Part shown: positions 4,004-40,033 of the stretch, piece after piece
How the letters are laid out: each line of letters opens with the position of its first letter
Position numbering within the stretch: position 1 is the first letter of the stretch
Source of the DNA: Willaertia magna
Lineage: Eukaryota > Heterolobosea > Eutetramitea > Acrasida > Naegleriidae
Reading direction: 5' to 3'
DNA length: 46,718 nt
Assembly (NCBI GenBank): GCA_902984215.1
Contig: CADWAF010004623.1
Location: forward strand, 1 to 46,718
Made by a program: the position numbers and the translations under genes
Notes under the pieces: model-generated
Seen by the model: the letters and a program-made list of their open reading frames with translations, nothing else
Told to the model about the DNA's origin: nothing
Database searches by the model: none

Positions 4004-4132
4004 ATGCCTTGCGAATCTTGCAAAAAGACTGGAACAAACAATCAATGCGAATGTGAAAGGACTGGAAATTGCACCTGCACTAATTGTGACTGTCCAAATT
4101 GTACAACACACCACAAAACAGAAAAGAAGTAA
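4004..4132 (+). CDS. Metallothionein-like Cys-rich small protein (42 aa)
   Basis: A 42-residue frame with nine cysteines (positions 3, 6, 15, 17, 23, 25, 28, 30, 33), in one CxxC, one CxC and then CxCxxCxCxxC. It contains no aromatic residues, two adjacent His (36-37) and a Lys-rich end. This composition and CxC/CxxC spacing are diagnostic of metallothioneins, which buffer Zn, Cu or Cd through thiolate clusters in the cytosol. The ATG lies in an A/C-rich leader and TAA ends the frame. It stands alone on the plus strand, with the PPR gene's 3' end converging 51 nt away. Small size hides it from usual gene finders. The metal preference cannot be read from sequence. A Cys-rich frame of this order arising by chance in such AT-rich DNA is very unlikely. 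Confidence 0.85.
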   Translation: MPCESCKKTGTNNQCECERTGNCTCTNCDCPNCTTHHKTEKK

Positions 4133-4183
4133 CCCAATTGAATTAAGCACAAAAATTTTTGTTAAAACTTTACAATAAATAAA

Positions 4184-6406: not shown

Positions 6407-6526
6407 TTTTTGCAAAAAATTCCAAATTCAACCATTGTTTGCAAATTGGTTTTGTTAAGGTATAAATGTTTTAAATATTTTGAATTACAAAAAAGAAAGG
6501 TTGAACAGACTGAACCAAAAGAAAGA

Positions 6527-13785: not shown

Positions 13786-14526
13786 TTAATTTGAAGTAGT
13801 ACTAGTAGTACTTCTACATCTATAAAAAGAAGGAAATCCACATCCAAACCAAATTACAATAAATATTAAAACTAATACAACTATAATACAAATAAGACCT
13901 AAAATAAAAGTTCTTTTCACCATTGTATTCTTTAATTCTTTACTTTTAGTTCTAAATGAATCAGCTGATTCAGCTAAATCTAAAGTTCTATTTACTAATA
14001 AATCAATCTTCTCTCCTCTATCTAAAACTTTATCAATATTGTCAATCATTGTTTCTTTTACATCTTCTATTTGTCCTTTTATTTTAGTAATTTTATCAGA
14101 TTGTTTTGTATTATTATAGAAATTAGTTTGTTGTCTTAAAATAGATCCAAATTCTTTATTTAAACTATTAGGTATATTATTTGGTAAATTATTTAATTTT
14201 TGTAAAGAATATTTCTCTAAAAAATTATTTTTAATTTCTTCTAAAAAATTAAATGGAATTCTACTTCCAAAATCTTTTCCACTCATACAGAAAAATATTA
14301 AATTAAAATCACCAACAACTAAAATATGGAAAATATATTGATCATATAAATAAGAGACTTTGGTGGATTTATTGGCGGGAATTTTTTCTATAATTTGTCT
14401 TGAAATTTGTTGAAAATTTCCTTTACTTTCTGTATATTCACATAATACATTAGTTCCTTTAGCAATTAATGAATAAATGATATTATTATCTGTTGTTGAA
14501 TGATTGTTGTTACCACTTCCGAACAT
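13786..14526 (-). CDS. VAMP7: VAMP7-type longin R-SNARE
   Basis: A 246-residue tail-anchored vesicle SNARE. Residues ~15-125 form a longin domain (IIYSLIAKGTNVLCEYTE, LYDQYIFHILVVGDFNLIFF). Residues ~145-205 are the SNARE motif (KIKGQIEDVKETMIDNIDKV), with the zero-layer arginine in LDRGEKIDLLVNRT. One transmembrane helix follows (FILGLICIIVVLVLIFIVIW). The family drives fusion of late endosomes, lysosomes and secretory vesicles; in an amoeba it probably serves phagocytic or digestive traffic. After the anchor, ~20 residues (CGFPSFYRC and a Ser/Thr-rich end) are longer than usual for VAMP7. The ATG follows eight A residues. No intron. Confidence 0.92.
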   Translation of the reverse strand: MFGSGNNNHSTTDNNIIYSLIAKGTNVLCEYTESKGNFQQISRQIIEKIPANKSTKVSYLYDQYIFHILVVGDFNLIFFCMSGKDFGSRIPFNFLEEIKNNFLEKYSLQKLNNLPNNIPNSLNKEFGSILRQQTNFYNNTKQSDKITKIKGQIEDVKETMIDNIDKVLDRGEKIDLLVNRTLDLAESADSFRTKSKELKNTMVKRTFILGLICIIVVLVLIFIVIWFGCGFPSFYRCRSTTSTTSN

Positions 14527-14771: not shown

Positions 14772-16095
14772 ATGCAAGAAGATAATAACAATATCACTAC
14801 ATTGCAGATAGAAGCAACGGAAGATAATGAAATTTCAAGTGGAAATAAAGTAGAAATTATTCATCATTCGCATGAAAATTATATTCATTGCCCTAGCTTG
14901 AATTCTTTACCAGAAACACCAAATAACGAGACAGTAATTGTTGTCACTAACAATAATACTGTTCAATATCCAATAAATGAAACGGAAGAAATAAAAGAAT
15001 GTCAGCTGCCAACATCTATAGAAAGAACATCTGTTGGAAGTAAAAGAAAAAGTAAAACTGCTAATGAAAATAAAACACAACCTCCAGCAATCAACCCAAC
15101 ACCAATCGCTCCACCACCACACCGAGGACATAATACTCCTTCCCAAATAATGGATATTTTAAAAGCTGAAGGAAAGAGAAAAGCAAGACTGACATTTGAC
15201 CAAATAATTTTATTATCTTTGTTGGCTGGGTTTTTTAAAGGAATTGCTGGAACGATATCAGTTTTTGTTGGTGGGAATGTTCCACAACTCCAAAAAGATT
15301 ATCCAGGTTTACAAAAATTATTATTTGCAGCGTATGTAATTTATTATTTTTGTAATTAAACATTTTTGAAGAGTTTTTCCAGTTGGTTTTATTTTAACAA
15401 TTTTATATGGAGCTGAATTATTTACGGGAAACACTTTAGTTGTTTTATTTAATTTATTTCACAGAAAAGAATTTAGTTGGAAGAAGTTTCTTTATGATTA
15501 TTTCCACTTTTCAAAGAATATGTTTTTATCTTTTGTTTTTAATGTTTTAGGAGCTTTTTTAACTGGTTATTTATTTGTGTACTTAACTCAACCTTGTTGT
15601 GACGCAAGTTGGATAAGTTTTGTTAAAAATTTAGCAGAAAGTAAAGTTTCAAAAACATTTGGTCAATTTGTGTTATTAGGTATTATTTGTAATGCATTAG
15701 TGACTAGTGGTGTTTACGTAGCTATGACATCTAATACAGCAGAAGGAAAGGCAATACTTGCTTATATACCAATCTTTTGTTTTGTTGCTTGTGGTTTTGA
15801 ACATTCCATAGCCAATGCTTATTATATCCCATTAGGAATGTTATATGGAGCTAAAGTTAGTGTTTATGAGTTTTTAATTGTAAATTTACTGCCTGTTACA
15901 ATAGGTAATATAATTGGTGGTAGTTTAGTTGTAGGTTGTGTGATGTTTTATGTTTATGATATTCGTTTAAGATATAATCGGTGGATTAGAAATGGAATTA
16001 AAAAGATGTGGAATTTTTGTAAATCAAAAAAGCAAAGTGAAAATAACATAACTAACGAAGGAATAGAAATGATTGATTTAGAAAAACAACAATGA
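14772..16095 (+). CDS. Formate/nitrite transporter (FNT/FocA family)
   Basis: Two exons, 14772-15331 and 15372-16095, with a 40-nt GTATGT...AAG intron, encode 427 residues. After a ~140-residue polar N-terminal region, six membrane segments carry the FNT signatures: YGAELFTGNT, ICNALVTSGVYVA, CGFEHSIANAYYIPLGM and LPVTIGNIIGGSLVVG. FNT proteins are pentameric channels or H+-coupled carriers for formate, nitrite, lactate or hydrosulfide. The conserved central His sits in GFEHSIAN. The long cytosolic N-terminus is unusual, since most FNTs start about 25 residues before helix 1. It may regulate the channel. A fermentative or nitrite/lactate export role is plausible; the substrate cannot be told from sequence. 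The stop is TGA, supporting standard code use. Confidence 0.93.
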
Positions 16096-18205: not shown

Positions 18206-18826
18206 TTAGAAATAATAATTAGTGTTTAGTTCTTCTCCACACCATTTATTTAAATCAGCTAATTTCTCTTCTTCTTGTTTTGTAAAATCACTTTCAATTT
18301 CAAACATATTTCTTAAATTTTCTACAGATTTACCATTTGTAATCATACTTGCAATTTTACAAGTTAATAAATCCAATAAATTTTTAATATTTAAATAATT
18401 TGTTGCTAATAATAATTCAATTAATAAAGATTGATCCATTTCTAAAAAAGTTAAATCAAATTCACAAAGACTTTCATCAAATTGTGTTTTAGATTTAATT
18501 GGTTTTTTAATTGGATATTTTGTTATTTCTTTTTCATTTTCTTTATTTTTATGATAATAATTACAATAATCAACTATTTTTTGTAATGCTCTAGAATGAA
18601 TATTTTTTAGTGGAATTGTTATCTTTTTGTTATTATTATTAGTAGATGTTAGATTCATTTGATCTTCTTCTATTAACGTTATTTCTTCTTCTTTTATTGT
18701 AGTTTCCTCTTCCTCTTCTTCTTCATTAATTTCTAACATATCTCTAATCATTTCCGATATCATCATTGCTTCTCTATCAATGGTGAATATTTTACCATCT
18801 TTACTTTGTAATGCAATTTCTTTCAT
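18206..18826 (-). CDS. SKP1-like: Divergent SKP1-like SCF adaptor
   Basis: A 206-residue BTB/POZ-fold SKP1 protein. It starts KEIALQSKDGKIFTIDREAM (the SKP1 strand S1-S2 region) and continues IPLKNIHSRALQKIVDYCNYY. It then has FDLTFLEMDQSLLIELLLATNYLNIKNLLDLLTCKIA, the conserved SKP1 dimerisation core. It ends with the F-box-binding tail FEIESDFTKQEEEKLADLNKWCG. Compared with ordinary SKP1 (~160 residues), it carries an acidic insert (EEEEEETTIKEEE) after helix 1 and a basic insert around residues 104-125. The ending is NTNYYF rather than the canonical N-E-W-C-E-x-K. It is likely a paralogue paired with the F-box proteins of this genome. The GTG at 18862 was rejected for the A-run-preceded ATG at 18826. 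Confidence 0.88.
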   Translation of the reverse strand: MKEIALQSKDGKIFTIDREAMMISEMIRDMLEINEEEEEEETTIKEEEITLIEEDQMNLTSTNNNNKKITIPLKNIHSRALQKIVDYCNYYHKNKENEKEITKYPIKKPIKSKTQFDESLCEFDLTFLEMDQSLLIELLLATNYLNIKNLLDLLTCKIASMITNGKSVENLRNMFEIESDFTKQEEEKLADLNKWCGEELNTNYYF

Positions 18827-18901
18827 TTTTTTTTGGTTGTCAGATGATTGCGCAACTGTCACTTGTTCTCAATTACAATACTTTATTAATGCACAACAAC
18901 A

Positions 18902-21900
18902 TTAAAGTCTTTGTGGAGAAGAAATGCCTATTGTTGGATTTGTTGGTGCACTACTTCCAATTGCATTTTGAGCTTCTAGTGCTGAAGTAGTAAAATCAAT
19001 ATCAATAGCTTTACAATTAGTGATTGCATAAAGTAGTTTTTCTTTCATAATTTCTTTGGAGCTATAAGAAGGTAATTCTATAGAGAAGAAGCAAGTATGT
19101 GACAATGGTAAAAATGCATCAGGATTAGTTCTGTCAAGTTTTTGGATTTTCATTGGATTTGTAAATGCTTCACTTTCATTGATTGGCATTCTACTTCTTC
19201 CCCAAACAAATTTAAGATACAATGATCGTTGTTCTGGAGTGAATGATTGTAAAATTTCCCAGAATAGTTTAACTTCTCTTGATTGGGCATTATATCCTTC
19301 ATAAATAGTATGTTGTTTAAGCTTTTCAACATCAAGATCTGGTACACCACAAACGAGTTTTTCGAATTCTTGCCAAGTTAACAATGGGAAAAATCTGTTT
19401 GTTATTACACTATATAAACCTTTTCTTAAAGCATTAAGTTGGACTTTAAATTCACGATTTAAACGATAGTCTCTAATTAATTCTACATATTGGTTACGAT
19501 TTCCATAAGTTAATTTTACGTTACTTCCATTAGGTACCAATTCAACTTCTTTACCATCGCTTCCAATGGTAGTAAAGGTTCTGTCACAATAGGTTTCATT
19601 AAAGTTTTCTTCAATCATTTTCATTAATTCTTCAGTATCATCAGTAAATGTTGGATCTAGAGTCAAACTATCCTGTTCCAATAAGGCTTTCATTGCAGTA
19701 AACATTGCTTCATCAAATGATCTTAAATCTTCCCAAGTTAAAGGCAAATCACTAACAATCATTTTCCAAACAATAGATGGGAAATCAAATGGAAGTACGT
19801 TTTTAGTTAAAATACCAATTCCCATTATCACACCAACAAATTCATACCATTTCAAATGTTGGTCACTTGTACTTTGTGGATTTGGAATGAATTTTTCAAG
19901 ATTTTCACCACTTTGTTGTATTTTGTTTGGTGTTGGAATAAAAAGATCTAAAACAGTAGGGTCTGTAGCCAATAATTCTTGACACATATTGGTTAATGAT
20001 TCACGGAATGGTCCTCCATAGTCATCTGCTGCTTCACCAATTAAAGTCACTTTCCATGAAGCCTTTTTACTACTTAATATTCTTGGATGCATAGCCTTAA
20101 CTTGATTGTAAGCTTGGATGAAAAGTGAATTAAAGGCATTTCGTTGACGATCTGTTGGGTGGGCATCTGAAGCTAAATGTCTGTTTAACCTTAAACCAAT
20201 AGGCTCAATGGTGATATGAGATTTTGTTACTGAGTGTTGCCAAGCATCTAGTTTAACAGAATGGAAAATTCTATGCCTCATTAACTTACTTAAAATGTCT
20301 GTAATTCTAAAAACAGCTCTAGTTTTAGTAGCCAATGGGTGACTAAAATCTAAAAGATTTATAATACGAGATATTCTTCTGTTAAATAATTTTAGGAGTG
20401 TAAATCTATATCTCAATCTATTCAATGGTACTTTTTCCAATAAACCTAAATGTTTTAATTCTTCACTCCTAGGTGATAATTGGTTCCATTCAAGGCTTTG
20501 CCAACCACAATTACTGAAAGTTTCCACATACTCAATAAGTTGTTTGTCAAATTCATCCGGATTTATGTCATCAGCTTCTAACTCGCATTCATCATTGGAA
20601 ATTCCTCTAATTTTTCTTATTTTCAAAAGGGTTCTTACCTCATCCATTTCTCCTTCCAACTGAGACATTTTAGGACAGGAATCTATTGACGAAGACACGC
20701 TAAACAAATATCCCCAGTGGCTGTCCATTTCTTTTTCATATACCAAACCATAAGGAAGGTGATTGGCAGGCATTTGATTCTTTGGAGGTAACGGCCTTAC
20801 TACTCTTAAAAATATGTGCATTCTATCATGATATTTATATTCAGTCTCAGCACACTTTTCACATAAATTGTAGTTTTCGCAATTTTCACACCAATAACGA
20901 ACACCACGTATTGGATTCATTCCACAGTTGTCACATTTTACTCCCGTGTGAATATTTGCCTTAAATTGAGAACCTTGTTTCCATCTTTGGGAATAGAGGG
21001 AAGGTATTAAAGCAGGGGTACAATCAACGGGTCTTCTAATTTTCAAGAAAAGGTGCATTTCAGAGTGAACTTTTGATTGTTTTTGGATACATTTCTCACA
21101 TAAATCGTATTCTTCACATTCAACGCAATGGTACCTTACACCAACAATGTTACTTCTACAATTTGAACATTTTACTTCATGGTCACCGCCACCACATGTA
21201 AATTCAAAGAAAATAGTGTCAGTTCCATGAACTACTATTGTTTTGTCTTTCAACTCTTCCCCTCCAAATGATCCTAAATCATCAGATCCAATTTGCTTTG
21301 TACTGAAATTTAATCTATCACACTTGTGAGTCTTGCTATGCTTATCAAATGTAATGTATAAGGTTTTAGCTCCTGGAATACGTATTTTAGCAGAATCATT
21401 AACAAGGTTGTAGGGGTGTTTACTTTCTTTATACGTGACTTTCTTTTTCCTCTCCAAAATTGATTCAAATAAAGTCCAATCAGGGAAATTTCTTCCATTA
21501 CTCTGAGAAAATACTTCAAGGAATTCACGAATAATTGTCAACTGGTCAACCCATGAGACATGCTCAAACCAATCAGAGGGATTTACTCTTAACACACCAT
21601 CGGTAGATCCTACAGGTACAATAGTAGTTTCTACATTACAATTACTTTCTGGATCATATCTTACTTGAAATTCTGTGGCTACTTGGGATTGACAAGGGAA
21701 GCTTTCATTTGAAAAATATTTAGCAAACGAGGAATCATATTGTTTGTGGTGGCTTAAGGATTGGTTTCTGGCAGTTGTATGAGTACAACAAGTACATGCA
21801 TTTATAGGTGATGAAGTGTTGGAGGTCAATAAATAAAGATGATGTTTATCTAATCTTTGAAGTAAGGTGTTATTGGCTCCAGTTATTGATATGCTTGCAG

Positions 21901-24900
21901 CTGGAAAAACTGATTGACATAAATCACTTACTAGATATCTTCTAATTACTGTCATAAGCTCTGCCATACTGTGGAAGTTTGGAAGTGGATAGGCATTAAC
22001 TTCACTATATCTTAAAAATTTACGATATAAATCTTCTAATTCTACACGGAAACGTTTCAATAATTTAAGGTGGGAGTAAGGGGAATTAGAGACATTGCTA
22101 CTTAAAACTTGTGGTGAAGAGTAGTCTAATTGAAGTAAAGCATCAGATATAACTCCCTTAAATGGAGCAAACGGTGTCAATAAATATCTAAACAATGTTG
22201 GAAGATATTTGTGATATAAAGAGTTATCTTCATCAGTATTTTCATGTAGGCTTAACAAAATTCCAGATTTACTCATTTGGGAATTAATTTCTCGTCTTGT
22301 AATAGCAGCATATTTTAAAATTAAAGATGAAAGCAACATGTTTGGATTCAAGTAAGCATCTCTTTGAGACAATCGCCAAGTGAATGGGGCAGCATAGAAA
22401 GTCAAACCAACGTTCTCTTTAAGATTTGGACCAATGAAATCAAAGTAAATTTGTGCTTGACTTGGTAAATTATTTGTAGTAATTACAAAACAACGATCCA
22501 TTGGAGCAACAGGACTACCTCCTTTAATTTGGTGTGCAATTTTCTTTCCTTCACGATCATAATAGAAAGTTAAAATGTCATTGGTACTTGGTAAAGAAAA
22601 TCTTTCATCTAAAATAAAACTAACAGACGTTGTACCACAAAAGTGGATGAAATGAGATTTTAACTGAGGTGGTTGGAATAATATATTATATTCTTTTCTG
22701 TACTCAAATTTCCTAAAGTATGGAATTGTTTGGGTAAAGGCCTGAATTTCTTGTAAAGCTTCTCCTTCTAACATTTGGTATATATTGACCAATTTACCAT
22801 CTTTTCTAATAATATTTCTATCTTTCAAAAGTTCAAATGTTTCAATGGATGGTAATGTTTTGTTTGAGAAAGGATAAACATTGTCATAATCATAATGACC
22901 ATTTCCAAGTGTAGAGGTTTCTAATAACATAGTTGGTTGGGAAGCAGAAAAATTGAAATCATTATCTAAATGATGATAGGCGTCAATCATTATTTGTTTC
23001 ATAGCTTTCCATAATACTGAACTAGATTTAAAAGTGTTTTCCAAATTTAGTAAAACTGGAGCTTGTTTAGTTTCTCTAGCACTGACAATATTCAATAAAA
23101 TTTGATGGATATAGTTAGAACCTAAGCCAATATAAAATTGAGTACTCTTTGTCACCAGATCATTTAATGAAAAACCTTTTAATTCGAGAGGAGGTGTATA
23201 AATGTTTTTTGTTTCAACAAAATCTGTTACTACACTATTTGTATTTCCAAATATAGATGTTGGTTGGTCTTCAGAAACAGTTATGTAAGCACCATTTAAT
23301 AGTTTTTTCACGACAACACCTAATCTGCCTCTCATCTTCGTAAGTGTTAGCATTTTCTTACTATGCAAGCTGTTATTAATTGTATCAGAATTATCTGTTG
23401 GCGGAGAAGCAATGCGAGGAGAAACAACAACAATGTCTCCCTCTTTCACATTGGCCATTGAAGGAATATCACAAAAATTATTCTCGTTAATTTTAATATC
23501 AGGGTTTTGAAGCATTGCCTTCTTTAGTCTTATTTTCATGTCTTCATTATTGAACTCACTTCCCAAAAAGTTTATGCCATTAGATTCGTTCAGGAGAATA
23601 TTATTAACATTTTTATCATTTACATCACTCTCAGAAATTCTGGAACTTAAGCTACTTGAAGAAGATTGGTGCGGCGATCTACTATTTACAGTTTCTTCTA
23701 TTGAAACATTTCCCTCAAGTAATAAATTAAGAGCAATATTAATGTCATCTTGAGCCATTTGGAGAGCTTTTACAATTAATTGTTCATTATCAAAACCCAT
23801 AAACTTTAATTGTTGTACGAGTTGTTGCCTTATTGTTGGAACCGATTGGGTAGTAAGAGGAGTAGAGGATGCTTGTAAATTAGGTGCGGCATTTCTATGA
23901 AGATAACTAAGAGCAGTATTCATATCAATAGTAAAACTTCCTACGTTCAAGCTCTTCATAATAGCATCTCTAACATCATTTTCTGAGTAATATCCATTCA
24001 CAATTGTATTCAAAACCTTAATTTGGCTTTCAATTAGTAAATTAGATACATGTTCATTGGTATTTGTGATGAATGGTGTGGTAGCTGATTCTTTTTGTTG
24101 TGTTGGAACAATTGAATTATTGTGCTCCAATGGTTCAGAAGCATTCATTTCATATATTGCTTGTAGAGATCTGTGTATAGTTCTAGATAACGTAAATTGG
24201 AAAGGTACTTGGTTAGTAAGATTAAATTTAACTTGTACGTTTTTTCCTTTCATGGCAATAATTGGATATAGTGATGTGGATCCAACAGGAATAATGTTTC
24301 CTAAATTTACACCATTCTTTGTAAAAAATATTGAGCGTTGTTCTTTAGACCAACCACAACCAATCACATCCTTGTTTGAACAAAAAGTATATCCACTCTT
24401 TACTAAAGTATTACCTCTAAATACGTTTCCAGTGTCAGTGTGTAATGTATATATCCCAAAAGTTGCTGCAAACAATAAAGAAAATTGATAAGAACTTGAA
24501 GGAGTAGGAGGCATCTCAGAAAACCCAATGGCAATAGCATCACCTTTTTCAATAAGCTCTATTTCAAAGTAAAATCCTGGCCAAGCTTGAGGGACAGGGT
24601 GGTCTGTTCCAAGAGTACCATACTTTGGTGAATATAATCTCAAAGCGTTAAATGTAAGAATTGGCAATTCTTTTCCATTTGTTGTTAATGAATAAGGAAC
24701 TCCTTCTGTAACCAATGATTCTGGAACTACAAATCTAGAAGGACCTTTTTGTTGAGAGAATGAATTGCTTAATGTAGGATTAGATAAGATAGAATTAGAG
24801 TCTACCATAAAGTTGAGGAGAGACGTTGTTGGAGTTGCTAAATTTGTTTCAGGTGTGTGCATGTTTTTTCTAGCCAACACAGGCATTAATTTTTGTAATC

Positions 24901-27900
24901 TCAATATTAAACTTTCCATTCTATCAGAGGTAAGAATAGGATCTGAGGGTGCATGCTTTAAAGACTTGCAATTAGAAATAGAGTGGTTTTTACCCTCGCC
25001 AGCGCCACAATCACAATAGAAATCTCCAAACTCTGGTTCTCCCAAACGATGTCCTCTATGACAAGTTCTAGCACAAAATGCACAAACAGCTTGATTAGTA
25101 CTCATATTGCAGGAAATACAACTGTAGTAATATTGACGATGGAATTTTTTACCTGTAAAAGTAAAGGAACAAGAATCCAATTTTAACTCTTTTCCATAAT
25201 TGACCAAAGAGGAAAGATTGTGTGTCTTTTGCCCCAACCATACATTAATAATATTATCAGAATTATTGGAATCTGTTAATAATTGGAAGGTGGTGGCCTT
25301 TTCACCCAACAAAACCAACTGTTGAATAAAATCTTGGCGAATAGCACTGTCCTCGTCAACTCTATATGTTGAAGTGTGATCTAACAAATATTTAAGAACC
25401 ACACTTTCAGATCCTTTGGAGTTTGAAATACTCTCCATTAACCATTTCAAACATTTAATCCAAAGACTACTGTATAATAAACGTTGGTCATCATTTAAGT
25501 TTGACGAAATATCATTCTTAAATTCATCATTAAATAAATATCTACCTAAGTGTACAACAAATTTACAAATGGAGTGGACGTGTTGTTCTGTAAGAGGGAA
25601 AGATAAAAGTGGTTTTTGGGTGATGACATGAATATTTTCTGAGGAAACAAAATGCTCACGGTGAACAACTGATTTGTCTTCCAGTTCAATTTTAACAAGG
25701 TGATATGTTTCTTCAATCTCCTTAACCTTTGCAAGCTCTTGTCTCCCATTCATATCAACCAATACCTGTTCCCCAATTTGTGGGATATACTTGAAACCAC
25801 CCATTATTGTTAGTGTTGCAAATAAGCATTGAAGATCTTTGGAAATGTCAGTGTGTCTATTAAGATTTTTCAATATAGTTTCAGTGGAATCAAACAGAGC
25901 AGAATTCATTAACTGTACTAATAGTTTTACGAAATATGAGCCATTTTCAATAGACACACTAAATAGTTTTCTGATTAATAAGAAAATTTCCTTTGCTATC
26001 CTTATACCAATTACTGAGGTATTATCAGGGGAATAACCTACCACTTGTCTCATCTCATAAGAACCAAAAAATTCAAATAAAATTACAATTAAATCATTAA
26101 GTCCCCCTTGATTATTGGATTGTGGAGAAACAGTATTGTTGTGAATTGAGGAACCTGAGCTTAAAATTAATTGACTGCATAACTTTAGTGCTAATTCCTG
26201 AACATTTGGGCGTGAACTTAATTTCAATAATGGTAAGAGTAATTGTTGGAATCTTTCGCTTGACAAGCACAGTTGAGCATATGACGTGTTGCAAAGTGAA
26301 ACCATTAATGATAACATTTCCTCAAGTACTTCAACTGAAATCGATTTAGAATTTGTATTCATATCAGCAATTATTCTCTTTAAATCGTTAAATAATAAAT
26401 TGAAAACTGTATCACGAAGAGAATTTAGGTGTTGGGTATATGTAAAATCACCTTCAAAATTCTCAGATTCCTCTAACATTTCAACGCATCTTATTGATAA
26501 TAATCTAAATATTTTCCAAGCCTTCTTATTCATTTCTTTATGCTCTTCAATGAAACCGTCTTTTCTTTTGAATTTAGAATTGTCATTATTTAGATCTGTT
26601 TGTACTGGTACTGTATTATACATTAAGTGAGAAAGTTTCGTTAAAAAGTCATTGTACAAAATCCATTCTACGTCACTTGGTCTAAAAGATATTAAACTAA
26701 TATCCAAAATTTCCCTTAATAGTCCACTTCTTACTAAATTATCTAATTTCTTTTGATTATCTTCGTGTATAGAATCATCAGTTCTAATTAACCAAGCATC
26801 TAAAGGTGTAAAAAGTCCTCTCAAGAAAGCTTTAAAGCTGTGACTCATAATTTCTTGGTACATTGAACCACATCCTTCAACATTATTGAAATAATGGAAA
26901 TTAGGAGAGTCACACTTTTTCATTGATCTAGTTTGTCTAATAGACTTAATTCCATGTATAATTTCTGCCTTGACACTGTTGAATTGAGTGCTTTGAATTA
27001 ATTCATTAAACATCTGGAACGAGGTTGCTCTATTTAAAGCTCTTTCTCTTCTCATACGCATTAAATTTAACATTCTGCTTGGAATAATATCAGACTGTAC
27101 AAACTGAACAACTTTTGTTGAAATATCATTAATGAATCCATCAGTAATGAGGCTCAAATTGATTTGATCTCTGTCTAGTCTTATCTTGTTGGCAGCAATC
27201 TGGGATAATTGAGAAAGTACATAAGATTTAGAAGCTACAAGATTTGTTTGTTGGCTTTGTTGTGTTTTCTTAAACATCCAAGGTTTTTCTAAAGTCTCCA
27301 ATGAAGGAGATTTAAAACCTTCATCCCTATCATAGATCTTTGAAAGATATGAGCTCTCTAATTGCAATAAAAATTTACACTTTTGCACAATAAAGTCTCT
27401 CATATCTCTATAGGCTAATTGCTTTTGTTGTTTTGTTTGAACCATCCATTGACGAAGCGGTCTTCCTATCTTTCTCCAAACACTCTTTAATTTGTCACAT
27501 CCTTCCCCATTCATTGCACTATTTAATGACATTAGGCTCTTTTCATCAACTGGGGTTGAAAAAGGGTTGCAATCTGCAACGATTTCTGACAATTTTCTAG
27601 CTAATGCAACTAAACCAGTATGCTTCAATGTTACAGCAACGACTGCTCTTTCTGATGTCACAACATCTGCAACATTTTGCATCATCATTGTAAACGCTTC
27701 ATTCTTAAAAATTCTTAGATATAAATATTGGCAAAATTGACCAGCTTCATTATTTCCATCAATCATATCCAATAAGAATTTATCATTAATATCCATCACT
27801 TTTGTCTTTGTTTGGTCAGATTGTGAGCCTGTGCTAAGTTCTTCCTCTAAAGAAATGTTAGAGGAAGGTAGTGTATTATATTTTGGTTTCTCGTTAGTTA

Positions 27901-30900
27901 ATTTTGAATTGTAATCTACAACTAAATTGGAAAAATCATCCTCAGGTTTCAGTAATAGCTCTGTGCTTCTTTCTGACTTAACATTGCTTTCATTTTCAAT
28001 TTGGTCATCTCTGATACCATTTGCAAATAATTTACTATCAAGCCAATCTACATACTTATCTTCATCACTGCTATAAGGATAAGATGATAAAACGTATGTA
28101 GTACATCTTCCTCCCAAATGACCCAAAAGCTTTTCCAATTCATACAAGAAATGAACACAATTTTCATTGCCCACATAATTAAAGACAGGAACAACTAAGC
28201 AACGCATTCCCCATTGTGAATGTTTATCTCCTGAACGGAAAGTGGTTGTCAGGCTGTTGCCCCATGTGACAAGTGGAATAATTGGAATTGTTGAGCCATG
28301 ACCTGAAAACTGTAGTGCTTGCACATTGGTAATCTTTTGTGAAGTATTAATTCTCAAATTATCTTCAGGACCTGCAGTAATACATCTTGGATCAAATTTA
28401 ATTCCAACCGATATAACTTCATGAGAGTGATTATTAATGGTATCCTCACTTTGTGAAGAATCGGAATTAAATGTAATTTCTTTGCTTTCCGAGGCACCAG
28501 ACTCATAAGGGTGATCTGATTCCACAATCGCCCAATCAAACAACAATCCAGGACCAGTTTTTTCAGTTGTATCACTTCTTACCTCATAGTCTTCTTTGAT
28601 TCCTACAAACTGTGACAACAAATCAACTGATCTTAATAACTCAACTATATGAGGATAAAGAAATTGAGTTAATTTTTCAAAATGTTGGTCTATGTAAACC
28701 TTTGAATTATTATTTCCTTTCCATAAAAGCTTAGAAAAGCTGTGCAATACAGGAAAAACTAACCAACCAATAATGCCCTCTTGTACTTCTCTTGCTAGAC
28801 TTTTTAAAAGTTGTACAAAGAAATCTTTGGTCTCATTTTGTTGGGTTGAGCTTTCTTTTATCTCAGCCGCTACTGTACATGTCTCATTCAATAATTGTTC
28901 GCAAGTCGTCAAAAGAATATTTGTGTATTCTAATAAAACCTTAGAAGTGCTGTTACTAAGAACAGAGGAACTATTATTTCCTTTGGAGAATAAGCTAGAA
29001 ATATTTTGGACTAACGTATTTTGCCACATTAATAAAAGTCTCTTTGTCAAGAAAACTATTGCTATCATATCCTCACTGGCCACATTTAATACAGAAGACG
29101 ATGAACTTTTAGTATCTACTAAATGCTGAACAAAGTTTGATAAAGTAATCTGGTATTGTCTCTTAAGAAAATCAATTATTCTAGTAACAAAAGGTATTGC
29201 AATTGATGTATCACTAAACCCAATACCACTCCCTATAAAAGTATCAAACAAGGTAAAGTCATGAACCATTCTCTCTAATATTTTTCTTAATAAGCGTCTT
29301 TTTAAGGAGTCAGATGTACAGGAAGCAATAGCATCCTCTATAAACTGTCTTTGATCTTCAATGGTTGGATAGAATAAAGTAAAACCGCAAACCAAAACAT
29401 CTATAATACAATCACCAATATGTTTCAAATCTTTTTCACCTAATCTTGAAATTGCAATAGCTATTCTTTGATCTTTTGATTTTTGGTGGGAACTAACCAA
29501 TACATAATCATCAGCGTCAATTTCTTCTTCTTGAGAAATAGATTCAAATAAAAAATGGTTTGTCTTATTTTCTTGTTTAATCTTTTGTTGTTGTTTAATT
29601 TGTTTTACTACCCCTTTTTCTTCAGATATTTCTTCTGTTTTAGTGTTTTGGGATTGCTTGGTATCTGTTTCTATCATATCTGCATTATTTTCTTTTTTCT
29701 CTATTATTGGTTCTGTTATTGGTGAAGTATTGTTATTTTCAGTAATTGGGGTTTTTGTTTTTCCACTTTGTTGGAGTAAATCAAAGAAATATGTTCTTAA
29801 TTCATCTATAACATTTGAGCCATTTCTATTTCCAATTGTTTGTACATTATAAGAATGTAAATGAACGGAAGTTAATCTTGATATTAATTCGTCAATGTTT
29901 TCCTTATTCTTTTTCCAAAGTGATAAAGATTTAATGTTTAAATGTAAAATTCTCAAAATTGCACTCAACGAATATTGTCTGATATCACAAGAAGGACTAC
30001 TACTACCTATTTGTAACACACGATCTATTAAGTCAACCAATATTTGAAAAGTATGGGCTGAAAGTTCTATACAAAACTTAACATTTGCGCTTGTCCTGTT
30101 TTTTAAATATTTTTCTCTTTGTACAAGAAGACAATTTGAAGAAGGAGGTGTTGTACTAAAATCCTTAACTCTGGTAGATAAATTATCTCCTTCCAATGAT
30201 ATTGTTACAGATGAATTATTAGTGTTTAAATTTTTAGATAAATTTGTTTCATTCATTAAATAAAAATTAGTTAATAAATCAATTTGATTCAAAAGAAATA
30301 CGAATAATCTTTTTGCAGTAAAAGGCTTCCTAGCATTTAAATTAGCATTTGATAGTAAAGAGTATTGATTCAAAATATTTAATGGATGGTTTGAGTTATT
30401 CTGAGCTTCTGCTTTGATTTTTTCATCCTTCAACATTTGATCTACATGTGTTTTAATTAAAAATTGGAATTGTTGTAAAGGTTTTAAAGTTTCTGGTTTA
30501 AAAACAAAGGCACCATCCTCTTCTGTTTCTGTTACTAAAAGTGGATCTGAAGGATCATCTGAAAGTGTTAATAGACATTGTAAAACATATAATAAGTCTA
30601 ACAAAGATCCCTCACTTAATCCTAACAGTAATAGTGAATGAATAGATTTTGTTCTTCGTTTTAATCCGTTTTCTTTTTCTTTAGAATAATCAATTAAATA
30701 ATTTTTAACAAGTACTGTTGATTCATCTAATCCTGACGGTATTGCCAATGGATAAGCATGTTTCGTTATTAATTTATGAATAGCTTCTGACTTTGATTTC
30801 CTTAATTTAGCAAATAAACCTTTCTTTACGTCACTTTTTTGCATAGCTTTTGCTAAACTCTTAAGAAAGGTATCTAAATCTTCACGTTTTAATGGTTGAA

Positions 30901-31891
30901 ATTGATGCTCAAATATTGTTATCATATCTGAAATTCCTTTTTCTAAATCATTTACATCAAAAATATAATTAGGTGGTATAATACTTAAAGAATTATTCAA
31001 ACCTAATTGTTCAAATTGATTTTTAAGAGCTGTACAATCTGTCAATTTTAATTGTTGAAACTCTTGTACTTTTTCCAAAATTTTTAATCTTTTGTAAAGT
31101 AACAAATGATAAGAAAGTAGTGTTGCAGCAAACCTGTCATCTTCTTGAAAGGCTTCTAAATATAATTTTCTTATAGCATTACTTAAAGGAGATACATTGT
31201 TATTATTTGAATCTGTTTCGCTTAGTAAAAGGTTTGCCCCCACAGAAGTTGTGTTTTCCAGTAAATACGTTGAGAATAAATCCGCTTCTTCAAAAGCTGT
31301 CCTTGGCATTGCGCTTTTAATACAGAATAAATCTAATTTCACCAGGTCCTCTATTTTCACTGGTTGTTTGTAAAATAAATCTAATAATTCATCATAACCC
31401 CGTATATTTACTATTAAATCTTTTTGTTGATCAGTTTCGGATTTTGTTGGATTGATTGATATTGAAGTAGATCTTTGAGATTTATTATTGTTAGTATTAC
31501 TTAAAGGGAGAGTGGGTTGTGTTGTTAAATTATTATTAGGTAACAAAGAAGGAGTTATCCAAGGATTGTTATTTGTTGATGTTGGTGAAATCATTACAGG
31601 CATTGTGTTGTATGGATTTGTCATTGCATAAGAATTTGTCATTGGAACGTAATAAGAATTTGAAGGGATAGACACAGGTATGTTATTTGTTGGTGTAAAC
31701 ATGGTATTAGGGATCATTCCCGTTGGATTTGGTCTTCCATAGAATGCATTAGGATTATTCAATGCAATAGAAGGATTTCGAAAAGTAGAACCTCCGGTTG
31801 TGTTTGGACCGGAAGTAGAAGCGATAGTAGTTCTTCTGGGATTATTGGGATTTACAGGAAATGTTGGTGGTGGATTTCTATAGGGATACAT
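18902..31891 (-). CDS. Giant HECT E3 ubiquitin ligase with UBR-box, SPRY, UBA and ZZ fingers
   Basis: A single 13-kb exon encoding 4329 residues. Approximate domains: Asn/Pro/Thr-rich head (1-150); long helical region; beta-sandwich HPY-type module (~1125-1235); UBR-box (~2238-2312, CISC...CAFCARTCHRGH...CDCGAG); SPRY (~2414-2564); UBA (~2682-2725, LKFMGFDNEQL); second HPY-type module (~3490-3565, IPGAKTLYITFDKHSKTHKC); two ZZ zinc fingers (~3567-3619 and ~3649-3697, each CxNC...RYxCxxCExYxLCEKC); HECT (~3905-4329). The HECT N-lobe has GEAADDYGGPFRESL, as in HERC1/HECTD4-type ligases. The C-lobe motif SHTCFF carries catalytic Cys4267 (codon 19091-19093). About 60 residues follow it, longer than usual. 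The UBR-box suggests N-degron recognition, and the HECT domain transfers ubiquitin. The frame begins at TTG 31933; ATG 31891, after an A-run, is preferred. Confidence 0.95.
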   Translation of the reverse strand: MYPYRNPPPTFPVNPNNPRRTTIASTSGPNTTGGSTFRNPSIALNNPNAFYGRPNPTGMIPNTMFTPTNNIPVSIPSNSYYVPMTNSYAMTNPYNTMPVMISPTSTNNNPWITPSLLPNNNLTTQPTLPLSNTNNNKSQRSTSISINPTKSETDQQKDLIVNIRGYDELLDLFYKQPVKIEDLVKLDLFCIKSAMPRTAFEEADLFSTYLLENTTSVGANLLLSETDSNNNNVSPLSNAIRKLYLEAFQEDDRFAATLLSYHLLLYKRLKILEKVQEFQQLKLTDCTALKNQFEQLGLNNSLSIIPPNYIFDVNDLEKGISDMITIFEHQFQPLKREDLDTFLKSLAKAMQKSDVKKGLFAKLRKSKSEAIHKLITKHAYPLAIPSGLDESTVLVKNYLIDYSKEKENGLKRRTKSIHSLLLLGLSEGSLLDLLYVLQCLLTLSDDPSDPLLVTETEEDGAFVFKPETLKPLQQFQFLIKTHVDQMLKDEKIKAEAQNNSNHPLNILNQYSLLSNANLNARKPFTAKRLFVFLLNQIDLLTNFYLMNETNLSKNLNTNNSSVTISLEGDNLSTRVKDFSTTPPSSNCLLVQREKYLKNRTSANVKFCIELSAHTFQILVDLIDRVLQIGSSSPSCDIRQYSLSAILRILHLNIKSLSLWKKNKENIDELISRLTSVHLHSYNVQTIGNRNGSNVIDELRTYFFDLLQQSGKTKTPITENNNTSPITEPIIEKKENNADMIETDTKQSQNTKTEEISEEKGVVKQIKQQQKIKQENKTNHFLFESISQEEEIDADDYVLVSSHQKSKDQRIAIAISRLGEKDLKHIGDCIIDVLVCGFTLFYPTIEDQRQFIEDAIASCTSDSLKRRLLRKILERMVHDFTLFDTFIGSGIGFSDTSIAIPFVTRIIDFLKRQYQITLSNFVQHLVDTKSSSSSVLNVASEDMIAIVFLTKRLLLMWQNTLVQNISSLFSKGNNSSSVLSNSTSKVLLEYTNILLTTCEQLLNETCTVAAEIKESSTQQNETKDFFVQLLKSLAREVQEGIIGWLVFPVLHSFSKLLWKGNNNSKVYIDQHFEKLTQFLYPHIVELLRSVDLLSQFVGIKEDYEVRSDTTEKTGPGLLFDWAIVESDHPYESGASESKEITFNSDSSQSEDTINNHSHEVISVGIKFDPRCITAGPEDNLRINTSQKITNVQALQFSGHGSTIPIIPLVTWGNSLTTTFRSGDKHSQWGMRCLVVPVFNYVGNENCVHFLYELEKLLGHLGGRCTTYVLSSYPYSSDEDKYVDWLDSKLFANGIRDDQIENESNVKSERSTELLLKPEDDFSNLVVDYNSKLTNEKPKYNTLPSSNISLEEELSTGSQSDQTKTKVMDINDKFLLDMIDGNNEAGQFCQYLYLRIFKNEAFTMMMQNVADVVTSERAVVAVTLKHTGLVALARKLSEIVADCNPFSTPVDEKSLMSLNSAMNGEGCDKLKSVWRKIGRPLRQWMVQTKQQKQLAYRDMRDFIVQKCKFLLQLESSYLSKIYDRDEGFKSPSLETLEKPWMFKKTQQSQQTNLVASKSYVLSQLSQIAANKIRLDRDQINLSLITDGFINDISTKVVQFVQSDIIPSRMLNLMRMRRERALNRATSFQMFNELIQSTQFNSVKAEIIHGIKSIRQTRSMKKCDSPNFHYFNNVEGCGSMYQEIMSHSFKAFLRGLFTPLDAWLIRTDDSIHEDNQKKLDNLVRSGLLREILDISLISFRPSDVEWILYNDFLTKLSHLMYNTVPVQTDLNNDNSKFKRKDGFIEEHKEMNKKAWKIFRLLSIRCVEMLEESENFEGDFTYTQHLNSLRDTVFNLLFNDLKRIIADMNTNSKSISVEVLEEMLSLMVSLCNTSYAQLCLSSERFQQLLLPLLKLSSRPNVQELALKLCSQLILSSGSSIHNNTVSPQSNNQGGLNDLIVILFEFFGSYEMRQVVGYSPDNTSVIGIRIAKEIFLLIRKLFSVSIENGSYFVKLLVQLMNSALFDSTETILKNLNRHTDISKDLQCLFATLTIMGGFKYIPQIGEQVLVDMNGRQELAKVKEIEETYHLVKIELEDKSVVHREHFVSSENIHVITQKPLLSFPLTEQHVHSICKFVVHLGRYLFNDEFKNDISSNLNDDQRLLYSSLWIKCLKWLMESISNSKGSESVVLKYLLDHTSTYRVDEDSAIRQDFIQQLVLLGEKATTFQLLTDSNNSDNIINVWLGQKTHNLSSLVNYGKELKLDSCSFTFTGKKFHRQYYYSCISCNMSTNQAVCAFCARTCHRGHRLGEPEFGDFYCDCGAGEGKNHSISNCKSLKHAPSDPILTSDRMESLILRLQKLMPVLARKNMHTPETNLATPTTSLLNFMVDSNSILSNPTLSNSFSQQKGPSRFVVPESLVTEGVPYSLTTNGKELPILTFNALRLYSPKYGTLGTDHPVPQAWPGFYFEIELIEKGDAIAIGFSEMPPTPSSSYQFSLLFAATFGIYTLHTDTGNVFRGNTLVKSGYTFCSNKDVIGCGWSKEQRSIFFTKNGVNLGNIIPVGSTSLYPIIAMKGKNVQVKFNLTNQVPFQFTLSRTIHRSLQAIYEMNASEPLEHNNSIVPTQQKESATTPFITNTNEHVSNLLIESQIKVLNTIVNGYYSENDVRDAIMKSLNVGSFTIDMNTALSYLHRNAAPNLQASSTPLTTQSVPTIRQQLVQQLKFMGFDNEQLIVKALQMAQDDINIALNLLLEGNVSIEETVNSRSPHQSSSSSLSSRISESDVNDKNVNNILLNESNGINFLGSEFNNEDMKIRLKKAMLQNPDIKINENNFCDIPSMANVKEGDIVVVSPRIASPPTDNSDTINNSLHSKKMLTLTKMRGRLGVVVKKLLNGAYITVSEDQPTSIFGNTNSVVTDFVETKNIYTPPLELKGFSLNDLVTKSTQFYIGLGSNYIHQILLNIVSARETKQAPVLLNLENTFKSSSVLWKAMKQIMIDAYHHLDNDFNFSASQPTMLLETSTLGNGHYDYDNVYPFSNKTLPSIETFELLKDRNIIRKDGKLVNIYQMLEGEALQEIQAFTQTIPYFRKFEYRKEYNILFQPPQLKSHFIHFCGTTSVSFILDERFSLPSTNDILTFYYDREGKKIAHQIKGGSPVAPMDRCFVITTNNLPSQAQIYFDFIGPNLKENVGLTFYAAPFTWRLSQRDAYLNPNMLLSSLILKYAAITRREINSQMSKSGILLSLHENTDEDNSLYHKYLPTLFRYLLTPFAPFKGVISDALLQLDYSSPQVLSSNVSNSPYSHLKLLKRFRVELEDLYRKFLRYSEVNAYPLPNFHSMAELMTVIRRYLVSDLCQSVFPAASISITGANNTLLQRLDKHHLYLLTSNTSSPINACTCCTHTTARNQSLSHHKQYDSSFAKYFSNESFPCQSQVATEFQVRYDPESNCNVETTIVPVGSTDGVLRVNPSDWFEHVSWVDQLTIIREFLEVFSQSNGRNFPDWTLFESILERKKKVTYKESKHPYNLVNDSAKIRIPGAKTLYITFDKHSKTHKCDRLNFSTKQIGSDDLGSFGGEELKDKTIVVHGTDTIFFEFTCGGGDHEVKCSNCRSNIVGVRYHCVECEEYDLCEKCIQKQSKVHSEMHLFLKIRRPVDCTPALIPSLYSQRWKQGSQFKANIHTGVKCDNCGMNPIRGVRYWCENCENYNLCEKCAETEYKYHDRMHIFLRVVRPLPPKNQMPANHLPYGLVYEKEMDSHWGYLFSVSSSIDSCPKMSQLEGEMDEVRTLLKIRKIRGISNDECELEADDINPDEFDKQLIEYVETFSNCGWQSLEWNQLSPRSEELKHLGLLEKVPLNRLRYRFTLLKLFNRRISRIINLLDFSHPLATKTRAVFRITDILSKLMRHRIFHSVKLDAWQHSVTKSHITIEPIGLRLNRHLASDAHPTDRQRNAFNSLFIQAYNQVKAMHPRILSSKKASWKVTLIGEAADDYGGPFRESLTNMCQELLATDPTVLDLFIPTPNKIQQSGENLEKFIPNPQSTSDQHLKWYEFVGVIMGIGILTKNVLPFDFPSIVWKMIVSDLPLTWEDLRSFDEAMFTAMKALLEQDSLTLDPTFTDDTEELMKMIEENFNETYCDRTFTTIGSDGKEVELVPNGSNVKLTYGNRNQYVELIRDYRLNREFKVQLNALRKGLYSVITNRFFPLLTWQEFEKLVCGVPDLDVEKLKQHTIYEGYNAQSREVKLFWEILQSFTPEQRSLYLKFVWGRSRMPINESEAFTNPMKIQKLDRTNPDAFLPLSHTCFFSIELPSYSSKEIMKEKLLYAITNCKAIDIDFTTSALEAQNAIGSSAPTNPTIGISSPQRL

Positions 31892-37097: not shown

Positions 37098-37877
37098 CTA
37101 ATTAAATATTTCAAAAGTTTCATCCTCTTTCTTGTATAAAAAATAACTTGAAATTAATAAAGGAATACCATTATCTAAAAATAGGACTAAAACGGTATCA
37201 GTATGGATACAATCATCGTCGTTAATAAAGTAGTAAGTTAATGGATAAATATGGTTAAATGAAAGTTTAGATAAATTAAATAATTTAAATAATTTATTCA
37301 TATCTGGTCGTAAAATATTATTATTTGGTTCAATATCTTCCATATTAGTACAATATAAATATCCATTTTTATTATTATAATTTAATCGTTCAAATAAATA
37401 AAATTTTCCCTTTTCTAAATTAATTAATTCATCCAATAATTTAATATTCTCTTTATATTTAACATAATCTTTATTTAATAAATTATTAGATAATTTTTCA
37501 TGTAATAAATAATTTTTATTGTAATACGAATAAAATTGTAATTTACACCAATATTTAAATAAATGCTCAAAATTAGAAGGTACTACATCTAAATTAAATA
37601 AATCTTTATAATCTAATGTATCATTAATAACTTCGTGTAACTCTTTTAATAAATTTTCTAAATTATTTAATTCTTCAATATTATTTAACTGAAATATATT
37701 TCCATAATAACATTTTTGAAATTCTTTAGAAATGTAAATATTATACCATTGTTTATTTACAAATTGAAATGAGGTAATAACATCAATTATTGATGAAAAT
37801 GTAAAGATAAATCTTAATGAAAGGTTGTCAATGAAAATGAATGAATCATCTATTTTTCTCTTTTTTAGTTGTGACAT
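37098..37877 (-). CDS. Short F-box-like paralogue, C-terminally truncated
   Basis: A 259-residue protein of the same family as the one at 12647-13717. Both have a basic KKRK start and an F-box-like segment (LSLRFIFTFSSIIDVITSFQ then FVNKQWYNIY). They share the FEHLFKYWCKLQF and LSKLSFNHIYPL motifs and the VLFLDNGIPLLISS strand. It stops ~95 residues earlier than its paralogue, right after a Tyr/Lys/Glu-rich segment (YFLYKKEDETFEIFN). No matching C-terminal sequence is visible in the AT-rich 135 nt downstream. The ATG is preceded by nine A residues, giving a normal start context, although it overlaps the upstream F-box/LRR frame by 13 nt. Confidence 0.75.
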   Translation of the reverse strand: MSQLKKRKIDDSFIFIDNLSLRFIFTFSSIIDVITSFQFVNKQWYNIYISKEFQKCYYGNIFQLNNIEELNNLENLLKELHEVINDTLDYKDLFNLDVVPSNFEHLFKYWCKLQFYSYYNKNYLLHEKLSNNLLNKDYVKYKENIKLLDELINLEKGKFYLFERLNYNNKNGYLYCTNMEDIEPNNNILRPDMNKLFKLFNLSKLSFNHIYPLTYYFINDDDCIHTDTVLVLFLDNGIPLLISSYFLYKKEDETFEIFN

Positions 37878-40033
37878 TTTTTTTTTATTATTTTATTGAA
37901 TGTTACAATTTTTGTTATCATCAATTTTTTTAAACTTTTTATTATAAATAACGATGGAAGATTTATTTCTTTTTTTAATTGTTTGTCATTTAATTGTTCA
38001 CAATTTTCAACATTTAATTTTTGTAATTTTATTTCATTTTCTTGTAAAATAATTGTTTTTAAACCTTTACAATTAATAATTTCTAAAAAGTTAATTTGAT
38101 TTGGAATTTTAAATTCTAATAACTTGTCACATGAATCAATATGTAAATTAATTAAACTGTCAGTTTTCATAATGAAATGGAATGATGAAGAAATTAAACA
38201 ATTACATTTAAAAAATCTTAAAGTTTGTAAATTTGTAAATTTAAAATTATTTTCTAAATTAAATTCATTTACATATTTTAAGATTAATTCTTGTAAACTT
38301 TCTGATTCAACACTTAAATCAATCGAATCTAAAGTTAATTCCAAAATTTTTAATTTTTTACCTAAATTAATAATTTTTTTAACAGAAGAACAATGACAAA
38401 TACTTAAATTTTCTAAATTAGGTAAATTATTAATTATTTCATTTAAAGAATCACTTGTTAATTCTGGTAGTGAATGCAAATTTAATAATTTTAAAGAATC
38501 ATTTCTAACTGTAACTGTAAATAAATTATCATTTGATTTAACATTAAATAATTTTAACTTTTCAATATTTTTAGATTTATTTAAAACTAAAGAAATAAAA
38601 TTAGAATTTAAATTTCCATTTAAAAAATTCAATTCTTTTAATTTATTCCATTCTATAAAATTATTTTCTTCTCTTTTTAAAATTTCATTCATTTCATCAA
38701 CTAAAATAGTCAACCCACAGATTGTAACATTTGATAATAAAGGACAGGTATTAAAAATGTTGATTAATATATATTTATCAAACTCTTCTGGAGCAATACA
38801 ATTTAATTTTTGTAATTTCTTTAAATTTGAAAAATTAAATGTGTTGTTTATATTACAGAAAGCAAAATCTAAATTTGTGATTGAAGGACAATTCTCTGCA
38901 ATATTTTGGAAACATGAATCAGTTAAAAGTTTACATTTACAAAAATCTATATTGTATAAATTATTGTGTATTGATTGAAATTGTAAATTATTTAATTTTA
39001 TAGATTCATTGATATTTAAAATTTCTAAATTTGGACAATTTAAAATTAATTGATCACTATTCATTTCCTTTAAAATTAATTGTTTTAATTTTGTATGTGA
39101 AATTACATTAAAATTATAAGAATTTGATAAATCTAAATATTCTAAATAAGGTAAATTAAATTCTGTAATTTGTTTACAAACGGCTTGTGGTGCATATTTA
39201 AATGTTAAACGTTTTAATTTAAATAAATTCTCAAAAGTATTTTCTAAAGCTCCAATATGTTCATTTGGTTGGTAAATGATAAAAGATAATAACATTGTTT
39301 CCAAGGAAATTAATTTATTTTCTTTTGTAAATAATTTATCAAATTCTTCTTTCTTTTGAAAAATTTCAAATAAAAAATCAAACTTTAAATGTGACAATTG
39401 ATTTATAATTTTTGATAGAAAATTTAAAATTGTTAAATTTCTTTCTTTATCATAAAATGTGAAAGGAGCATAAGATGAAGGTCCTCCATGGTATTCAACA
39501 AATAATTTTCTTAAATTTGGAAAATCTTCTTTACAAAACGAATAAACACCATCACTATCTAAAAAAAAATCTACTGGAAGAGCTAAAGATTCCAATTGAT
39601 TTCTATAATGAAAAGCTAAATTTGGTCCAAAATGGTCATTTGAATAATGAAAATATAAATGTTTAATATATTTTAAATTATTTAAAAAAAAATCAAATAT
39701 TTCATATTTTTTATCTTTTTCTGTTTTGTTTTTAGTATAAGATTTAAGGTAGTAAAAATGCTCTAAATAGTGGTCTACTATAATGGTTTCTAGATTGGGG
39801 AATCTAGTGGCGATAAATCGCAAAGCTTGTTTTAATGTTTTTCTTTTTTGGTAAAAGTCAACTTGTTTATTTTCCAGTGAAAATCTGATTAGTTGTGAAA
39901 TATTTAATTGAGTAATTCCATTACTAATTTTTAAACAGTTTTTATTTAAACTTAATAATTTAATTATGTCAATAGAAGAAAGATAAGAAAATATTATTTC
40001 CATAATCTCTGATGGCAGTGCATCTAACGACAT
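37865..40033 (-). CDS. F-box / leucine-rich-repeat protein
   Basis: A 722-residue protein. The N-terminal F-box is clear (LDALPSEIMEIIFSYLSSID then IIKLLSLNKNCLK). LRRs of the cysteine-containing/FBXL style run from ~residue 100 to ~700, for example LEYLDLSNSYNFNVISH, CKLLTDSCFQNIAENCPSIT and LKELNFLNGNLNSNFISLV. It would act as the substrate-recognition subunit of an SCF ligase with SKP1 and cullin. It is extremely Asn/Leu/Lys/Ile-rich, as is usual in this AT-rich genome. The last codons (KKKCHN, stop at 37865-37867) run into the start of the next minus-strand gene. The start ATG lies after nine A residues. Single exon. Confidence 0.88.
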   Translation of the reverse strand: MSLDALPSEIMEIIFSYLSSIDIIKLLSLNKNCLKISNGITQLNISQLIRFSLENKQVDFYQKRKTLKQALRFIATRFPNLETIIVDHYLEHFYYLKSYTKNKTEKDKKYEIFDFFLNNLKYIKHLYFHYSNDHFGPNLAFHYRNQLESLALPVDFFLDSDGVYSFCKEDFPNLRKLFVEYHGGPSSYAPFTFYDKERNLTILNFLSKIINQLSHLKFDFLFEIFQKKEEFDKLFTKENKLISLETMLLSFIIYQPNEHIGALENTFENLFKLKRLTFKYAPQAVCKQITEFNLPYLEYLDLSNSYNFNVISHTKLKQLILKEMNSDQLILNCPNLEILNINESIKLNNLQFQSIHNNLYNIDFCKCKLLTDSCFQNIAENCPSITNLDFAFCNINNTFNFSNLKKLQKLNCIAPEEFDKYILINIFNTCPLLSNVTICGLTILVDEMNEILKREENNFIEWNKLKELNFLNGNLNSNFISLVLNKSKNIEKLKLFNVKSNDNLFTVTVRNDSLKLLNLHSLPELTSDSLNEIINNLPNLENLSICHCSSVKKIINLGKKLKILELTLDSIDLSVESESLQELILKYVNEFNLENNFKFTNLQTLRFFKCNCLISSSFHFIMKTDSLINLHIDSCDKLLEFKIPNQINFLEIINCKGLKTIILQENEIKLQKLNVENCEQLNDKQLKKEINLPSLFIIKSLKKLMITKIVTFNKIIKKKCHN

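Follow-up and report, generated by a model that had tools for sequence, protein, structure and literature searches.

A giant HECT ligase of Willaertia magna with a UBR4-type UBR box and its relatives

UBR5 is the textbook example of a protein that combines a UBR box with a HECT domain. The window analyzed here, a whole stretch of 46,718 nucleotides from the heterolobosean Willaertia magna, contains a gene whose initial annotation described UBR-box, SPRY, UBA, tandem ZZ, and HECT modules in one giant chain. It raises the question of whether this gene encodes UBR5, a one-off fusion, or a ligase of another kind, and which N-termini, if any, its UBR box may read.

The HECT ligase gene (18902..31891, minus strand) was a single unbroken frame running from ATG through 4329 codons to a stop, with residue i at window positions 31892-3i to 31894-3i. 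Under a model of independent bases, the chance of so long an open frame was approximately 10^-160. Frame 1 of the plus strand over 18902-31891 contained many stops, and no further frame of ≥150 aa was listed within these bounds. A named W. magna database record (P0002) corresponded to the same protein over its full length and differed from it by 8 substitutions and by 2- and 3-residue insertions. HECT and ubiquitin were unmentioned in the main text of a W. magna transcriptome paper (PMC7285305).

A Skp1 gene (18206-18862, minus strand) was located directly downstream of the HECT ligase gene on the same strand, and a frame at 37865-40033 showed an F-box match just below the cut-off. A formate/nitrite transporter (14772-16095, plus strand) was encoded by two frames, 14772-15359 and 15520-16095, as if split by one intron. 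The window also encoded an animal-type haem peroxidase (162-1613, plus), a PPR protein (4184-6415, minus), a leucine-rich repeat protein (7210-10491, plus), a longin/synaptobrevin SNARE (13786-14526, minus), and CCDC22 (40725-42332, plus).

The proposed domain set and order, UBR box, SPRY, UBA, ZZ-ZZ, and HECT, was borne out by the Pfam scan, the alignment, and the family profiles. The Pfam listing for the 4329-aa frame comprised seven families up to E 1, with zf-UBR, SPRY, two ZZ, and HECT above the cut-off and UBA below it. From the N-terminal side, with all features on the minus strand, an armadillo-type helical scaffold (25799..27790, residues ~1368-2031) was followed by a small strand-rich unit (25643..25768, residues ~2042-2083; strands in the predicted model), the UBR box (24962..25180, residues 2238-2310; Pfam 27.3 bits), and SPRY (24179..24715, residues 2393-2571; Pfam 35.9 bits and family profile). 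The UBA, annotated as a single copy, turned out to be a pair by alignment and family profile (23693..24076, residues 2606-2733; Pfam 11.5 bits, below the cut-off), of which copy 1 was degenerate in W. magna. Further downstream were a CUB-like beta-sandwich (22373..22726, residues 3056-3173) and, between this sandwich and a second strand-rich unit, a candidate zinc site (21692..21919) formed by Cys 3325, 3366, 3369, and 3400 and His 3351, which was invariant in 12/12 aligned members and had no Pfam match in the frame scan. A region with a candidate alignment to the N-terminal half of HECTD3 (20252..21568, residues 3442-3880) included the second strand-rich unit (21200..21436, residues ~3486-3564; model strands of low confidence), ZZ finger 1 (21038..21181, residues 3571-3618; Pfam and ligands), and ZZ finger 2, which was HERC2-like (20792..20947, residues 3649-3700). 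The HECT domain (18992..20134, residues ~3920-4300; Pfam 255.5 bits) carried its catalytic Cys 4267 in the motif SHTCFF (19091..19093). This cysteine, a HECT E3 feature, was invariant in 12/12 members, and the alignment of the 12 likewise confirmed that the zinc ligands of the UBR box were intact, as had been claimed for both.

Two structure models were built from 11 sequences; their confidence was modest (65.1 and 53.0), and the UBR box was poorly modelled. For the first model, the single Foldseek match at E ≤ 0.001 was CRM1, the top matches of a second aligner were only generic ARM/HEAT folds, including one HUWE1, and UBR4 was absent among the best 50 matches of either program. For the second model, Foldseek returned nothing at E ≤ 0.001; BIRC6 (E 0.0026) headed its list, followed by a glycosidase and Kremen, with UBR4 at rank 18 (E 0.012) and the p62 ZZ at rank 50. 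A structural match of this model to HECTD3 came from the second aligner alone, without Foldseek support at E ≤ 0.001.

To place the protein among known sequences, family profiles were run on the window's own frame and on all 80 database proteins yielded by protein searches; these searches reach only proteins of 0.55-1.75 times the query length that share short words with it, so counts among the 80 are not a census. All parts were found in the order UBR, SPRY, UBA, ZZ-ZZ, HECT in 11 of the 80 (P0002-P0009, P0071, P0072, and P0081), and P0073 was a twelfth relative with the complete layout except SPRY. Because 11 rows (the window's frame, P0073, and nine of the 11 full-layout proteins) went into the profiles, those nine match by construction; P0002 and P0081 were outside the profile set, and P0002 was almost identical to the window's frame. 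Independent precomputed Pfam lists contained SPRY in nine of the 11 (P0002-P0009 and P0081; not in P0071, P0072, or P0073) and zf-UBR also in nine (P0002-P0009 and P0071; not in P0072, P0073, or P0081), and a pairwise search made both SPRY and the UBR box visible in P0071 and P0072. Records with a named organism among the 12 were from W. magna, Naegleria lovaniensis, N. gruberi, and Percolomonas cosmopolitus, all four heterolobosean, with Naegleria placed in Heterolobosea from a literature abstract. The source record of the N. gruberi protein gives it the name 'ubiquitin protein ligase'. The suggestion of a one-off fusion was not borne out: the survey of architectures found an orthologue family, with all parts present in 11 of the 80 proteins.

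Outside this family, a UBR box and HECT occurred together in two of the 80 proteins, P0022 from Hondaea and P0063, a UBR5, and the family profiles found UBR, SPRY, and HECT together in no protein outside the family. UBR boxes have been described as co-occurring with HECT and with ZZ domains, and as occurring in Heterolobosea (PMC4506424). No title or abstract on the UBR-SPRY-UBA-ZZ-ZZ-HECT architecture was found among the papers listed by text searches, for which 'ZZ' was too short a term.

Against solved structures, the W. magna UBR box scored 60.4 bits with UBR4, 38.7 bits with FBXO11, and 23.2 bits with UBR5; judged at the sequence level, it is of the UBR4 type and not of the UBR5 type. The pocket residues described for UBR4 (PMC10687169) were transferred through a gapless alignment of the two boxes, which mapped F1671 to F2250, F1713 to Y2292, D1715 to D2294, D1721 to G2300, and K1708 to E2287. 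In UBR4, F1671 and F1713 are described as stacking on a first residue that is aromatic or Arg and D1715 as holding the amine, with a minor role for D1721, and K1708 as favoring Glu and excluding Lys/Arg at position 2; F1671 is given as unique to UBR4 among human UBR boxes (PMC10687169). Binding by the isolated UBR4 box is weak, with KD values of 385 μM for YIFS and 626 μM for RIFS, and tens of μM for better peptides (PMC10687169). The W. magna box thus carries F2250, Y2292, and D2294, a predicted pocket for the alpha-amine and the first side chain. In the 12-member alignment, in which the window's frame stands in for P0002, F2250 and D2294 were each kept in 10/12 and Y2292 in 11/12, all three together in 10/12. 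Position 2287 was acidic in 11/12 members and Lys or Arg in 5/5 UBR4/BIG boxes examined. Since the box is UBR4-type, it would be predicted to read aromatic or Arg N-termini and not classical UBR1/2 type 1. The exceptions were P0073 and P0081, which kept all zinc ligands yet had lost pocket residues, so that a UBR box can persist without the pocket. Of all the results, this loss weighs most heavily against N-degron reading as a general role.

The UBR-box tree comprised 21 rows, 18 from proteins and three from the genome, and omitted N. gruberi, P0002, a second weak segment of Hondaea P0022, and all PDB chains. P0068, which we take to be from Cyanophora, was among the rows. The HECT family lay on one side of a branch (89/99), beside the UBR4s, in a tree where no branch was strongly supported and several rows were long. 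The Hondaea box, itself long-branched, was placed within the family's side, and the bootstrap of the tree as a whole had not settled.

The HECT tree was built from 27 of 81 proteins together with seven other HECT loci among the genome matches listed. The family formed a clade (100/100) inside a group (100/99) with HERC2 and giant protist ligases, and UBR5, represented by one row on a long branch, fell outside. This position and the UBR-box bit scores led to the rejection of UBR5 orthology, so the claim that the protein is not UBR5 stood, its HECT domain being on another branch and its UBR box far closer to that of UBR4. The best solved-chain match of the HECT domain was HECTD3, at 191 bits alone and 273 bits with the family profile. 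Of the 15 non-family database proteins in this tree, all but two, the UBR5 and Hondaea P0022, showed no UBR box. P0022 carried a UBR-box-like segment of its own at residues 3249-3316 and was located on the same HERC2-like HECT branch as the family, adjoining P0014, which showed none; it may represent an independent pairing of UBR and HECT.

Both annotated ZZ fingers were present, but a full p62-type N-degron pocket was not kept in the W. magna protein. Against solved chains, ZZ2 was nearest to the HERC2 ZZ (50.6 bits) and then to the PRT1 ZZ (38 bits), whose chain names mention F-, Y-, and W-degrons. In the p62 ZZ, Asp129 and Asp149 are described as holding the amine, and single mutants including D129N as binding nearly 30-fold more weakly (PMC6098011). 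The equivalent positions in W. magna were Ser/Asp in ZZ1 and Asp/Asn in ZZ2, and Asn occupied the Asp149 position of ZZ2 in 12/12 members. Both Asp equivalents occurred in one finger only in ZZ1 of P0073, and the ZZs of 11/12 members are therefore not predicted to be p62-type readers. The ZZ pair as a p62-like N-degron reader was thus rejected for these 11 on an incomplete pocket, with P0073 ZZ1 excepted.

Taken together, the sequence establishes an intact HECT domain with its cysteine, a scaffold of the armadillo type, and a UBR box that keeps every zinc ligand as well as the UBR4 pocket; N-degron binding, its specificity, and ubiquitin transfer are what we infer. We put at about an even chance that the protein is a HECT ligase of the HERC2/HECTD3-like branch that would recognize some of its substrates through exposed N-termini. 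This is the best explanation because the box is nearest to UBR4, the pocket is kept in 10/12, the HECT domain belongs to the HERC2 group, the cysteine is kept in 12/12, and the genome matched enzyme families that make Arg N-degrons, namely ATE_C (a profile that also matches in one bacterial control), Nt_Gln_amidase, and N_Asn_amidohyd. As in UBR4, D2294 would hold the free alpha-amine of the substrate, and F2250 and Y2292 would stack against a first residue that is aromatic or Arg. The acidic residue 2287, in place of Lys1708 of UBR4, would shift the position-2 preference from Glu or small residues to Lys/Arg. SPRY, ZZ, and CUB-like units may provide extra substrate contacts, the UBA pair may bind ubiquitin already attached to the substrate, and the HECT cysteine would then pass ubiquitin on. 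Counting against this account are the pocket loss in P0073 and P0081, the weak binding of the isolated UBR4 box itself, and the absence in 11/12 members of both p62 Asp equivalents from either ZZ.

The most serious alternative, to which we assign a substantial probability short of an even one, is that the UBR box serves only as a structural or protein-protein zinc module and that SPRY, ZZ, or a CUB-like unit picks the substrates, with N-termini unread. The retention of ligands and loss of the pocket in P0073 and P0081 favor it, as do the related UBR box of FBXO11 and the description of many UBR-box proteins as not binding N-degrons (PMC4506424); the conservation of the pocket residues in 10/12 members, including the UBR4-type Phe, argues against it. 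It appears improbable that the protein is instead a ligase of HERC2-like character, with ZZ fingers that recognize the tails of histones or SUMO and the UBR box as a minor addition. In favor of this, ZZ2 had its best match in the HERC2 ZZ, in chains whose names give a link to SUMO1 or H3; the HECT domain falls into one group with HERC2, and the family ARM profile matched one HERC2 (P0079). Set against this are the lack of RCC1 repeats by Pfam and the Asn shared by all ZZ2 fingers at the p62 Asp149 position. An artefact, by assembly error or by fusion of two adjacent genes, has negligible probability: the frame is uninterrupted, and the domain order recurs in 11 database proteins, among them a separate W. 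magna entry and another whose name is in transcriptome style, which contradicts an assembly fusion.

A further reading concerns where the box came from, and begins with the other UBR boxes of the genome. Four zf-UBR loci above the cut-off were found in the W. magna assembly, a lower bound since the assembly is partial (19.24 Mb examined vs. 36.6 and 47.6 Mb given as published for two strains): the window, a UBR1-type gene (C304) with PRT6_C and a UBR1-like winged helix in the adjacent frame, C751, and C396. The C751 locus scored 36.3 bits in the genome search, and the Pfam scan of its 602-aa frame gave a weak PHD only and no UBR box. C396 (L017 1818-5192, plus strand) encoded a protein kinase (162 bits) in which residues 716-772 resembled a UBR box; this segment scored 25.3 bits in the genome search and 20.3 bits, under the cut-off, in the frame scan. 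The UBR4 orthologue was a separate unbroken frame of 3838 codons on contig C623 (L016 135-9599 and L013), with PF13764 (651 bits) and PF24079. No UBR box was found on C623 by the genome-wide zf-UBR search, by Pfam in the first 3155 residues, or by the family profile over the whole frame with filters off, and the same profile succeeded in 5/5 other UBR4s. Homology to UBR4s started at residue 962-967, ~100 residues past the box site in the moss BIG protein, and residues 700-960 held one Cys.

These observations, together with the place of the HECT family beside the UBR4s in the UBR-box tree, would fit a relocated reader, in which N-terminus reading moved from UBR4 to the HECT ligase and UBR4 retained only its scaffold and catalytic module. 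However, the UBR4 evidence comes from one species and a partial assembly, the UBR-box tree has no strongly supported branch, and the site of loss is extrapolated because UBR4 homology was not detectable upstream of residue 962. We consider this relocation rather unlikely, and we hold just as tentatively its fuller form, that in Heterolobosea the UBR4 reader moved to a HERC2/HECTD3-like HECT, the charge of the position-2 pocket was reversed, and UBR4 lost its reader. In that case the protein would be a lineage-specific N-recognin coupling N-end reading to a catalytic Cys and not to the E4 module of UBR4. If the box of UBR4 was indeed lost in these cells, reading of N-ends would be a movable part and not a fixed property of UBR4, which could be tested in a free-living amoeba described as non-pathogenic (PMC7168187).

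Whatever its origin, a ligase of the HERC2/HECTD3-like branch with a candidate N-terminus reader remains our preferred reading, and its layout, compared by sequence, matches no named ligase family tested: UBR4/BIG, UBR5, HECTD3, and HERC2 each fail on a tested defining feature. It shares with UBR5 a UBR box and HECT within one giant chain, but differs in the branch of its HECT domain (the UBR5 row being long) and in a UBR box that matches UBR5 at only 23.2 bits; the UBR5 feature MLLE was absent among the seven Pfam families listed. Such a pairing on another branch of the HECT tree, with a box of the UBR4 type, suggests that the combination arose more than once. HECTD3, the best solved match of the HECT domain, has 861 aa vs. 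4329 aa and an inserted substrate-binding DOC domain (PMC13196369); the Pfam scan found no DOC/APC10 in the W. magna protein, which instead has its ZZ pair within the HECTD3-aligned range. HERC2 and giant protist HECTs (e.g., P0010-P0025) share its HECT clade, and some have ARM, UBA, SPRY, or ZZ/sandwich pieces, but HERC2 records list RCC1 repeats, which the Pfam scan did not find here. UBR4/BIG has the nearest UBR box, an aromatic and amine pocket, and giant size, and some UBR4/BIG proteins also have ZZ. In contrast to this family, the UBR4s found were without HECT and have their own C-terminal catalytic module, PF13764, which by Pfam scan was absent from the W. magna HECT ligase and present in the separate gene. 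Their second-position residue is also of opposite charge, Lys/Arg in UBR4 and acidic in the HECT family, and this change at one residue yields a sharp and cheap prediction of which N-termini would be read.
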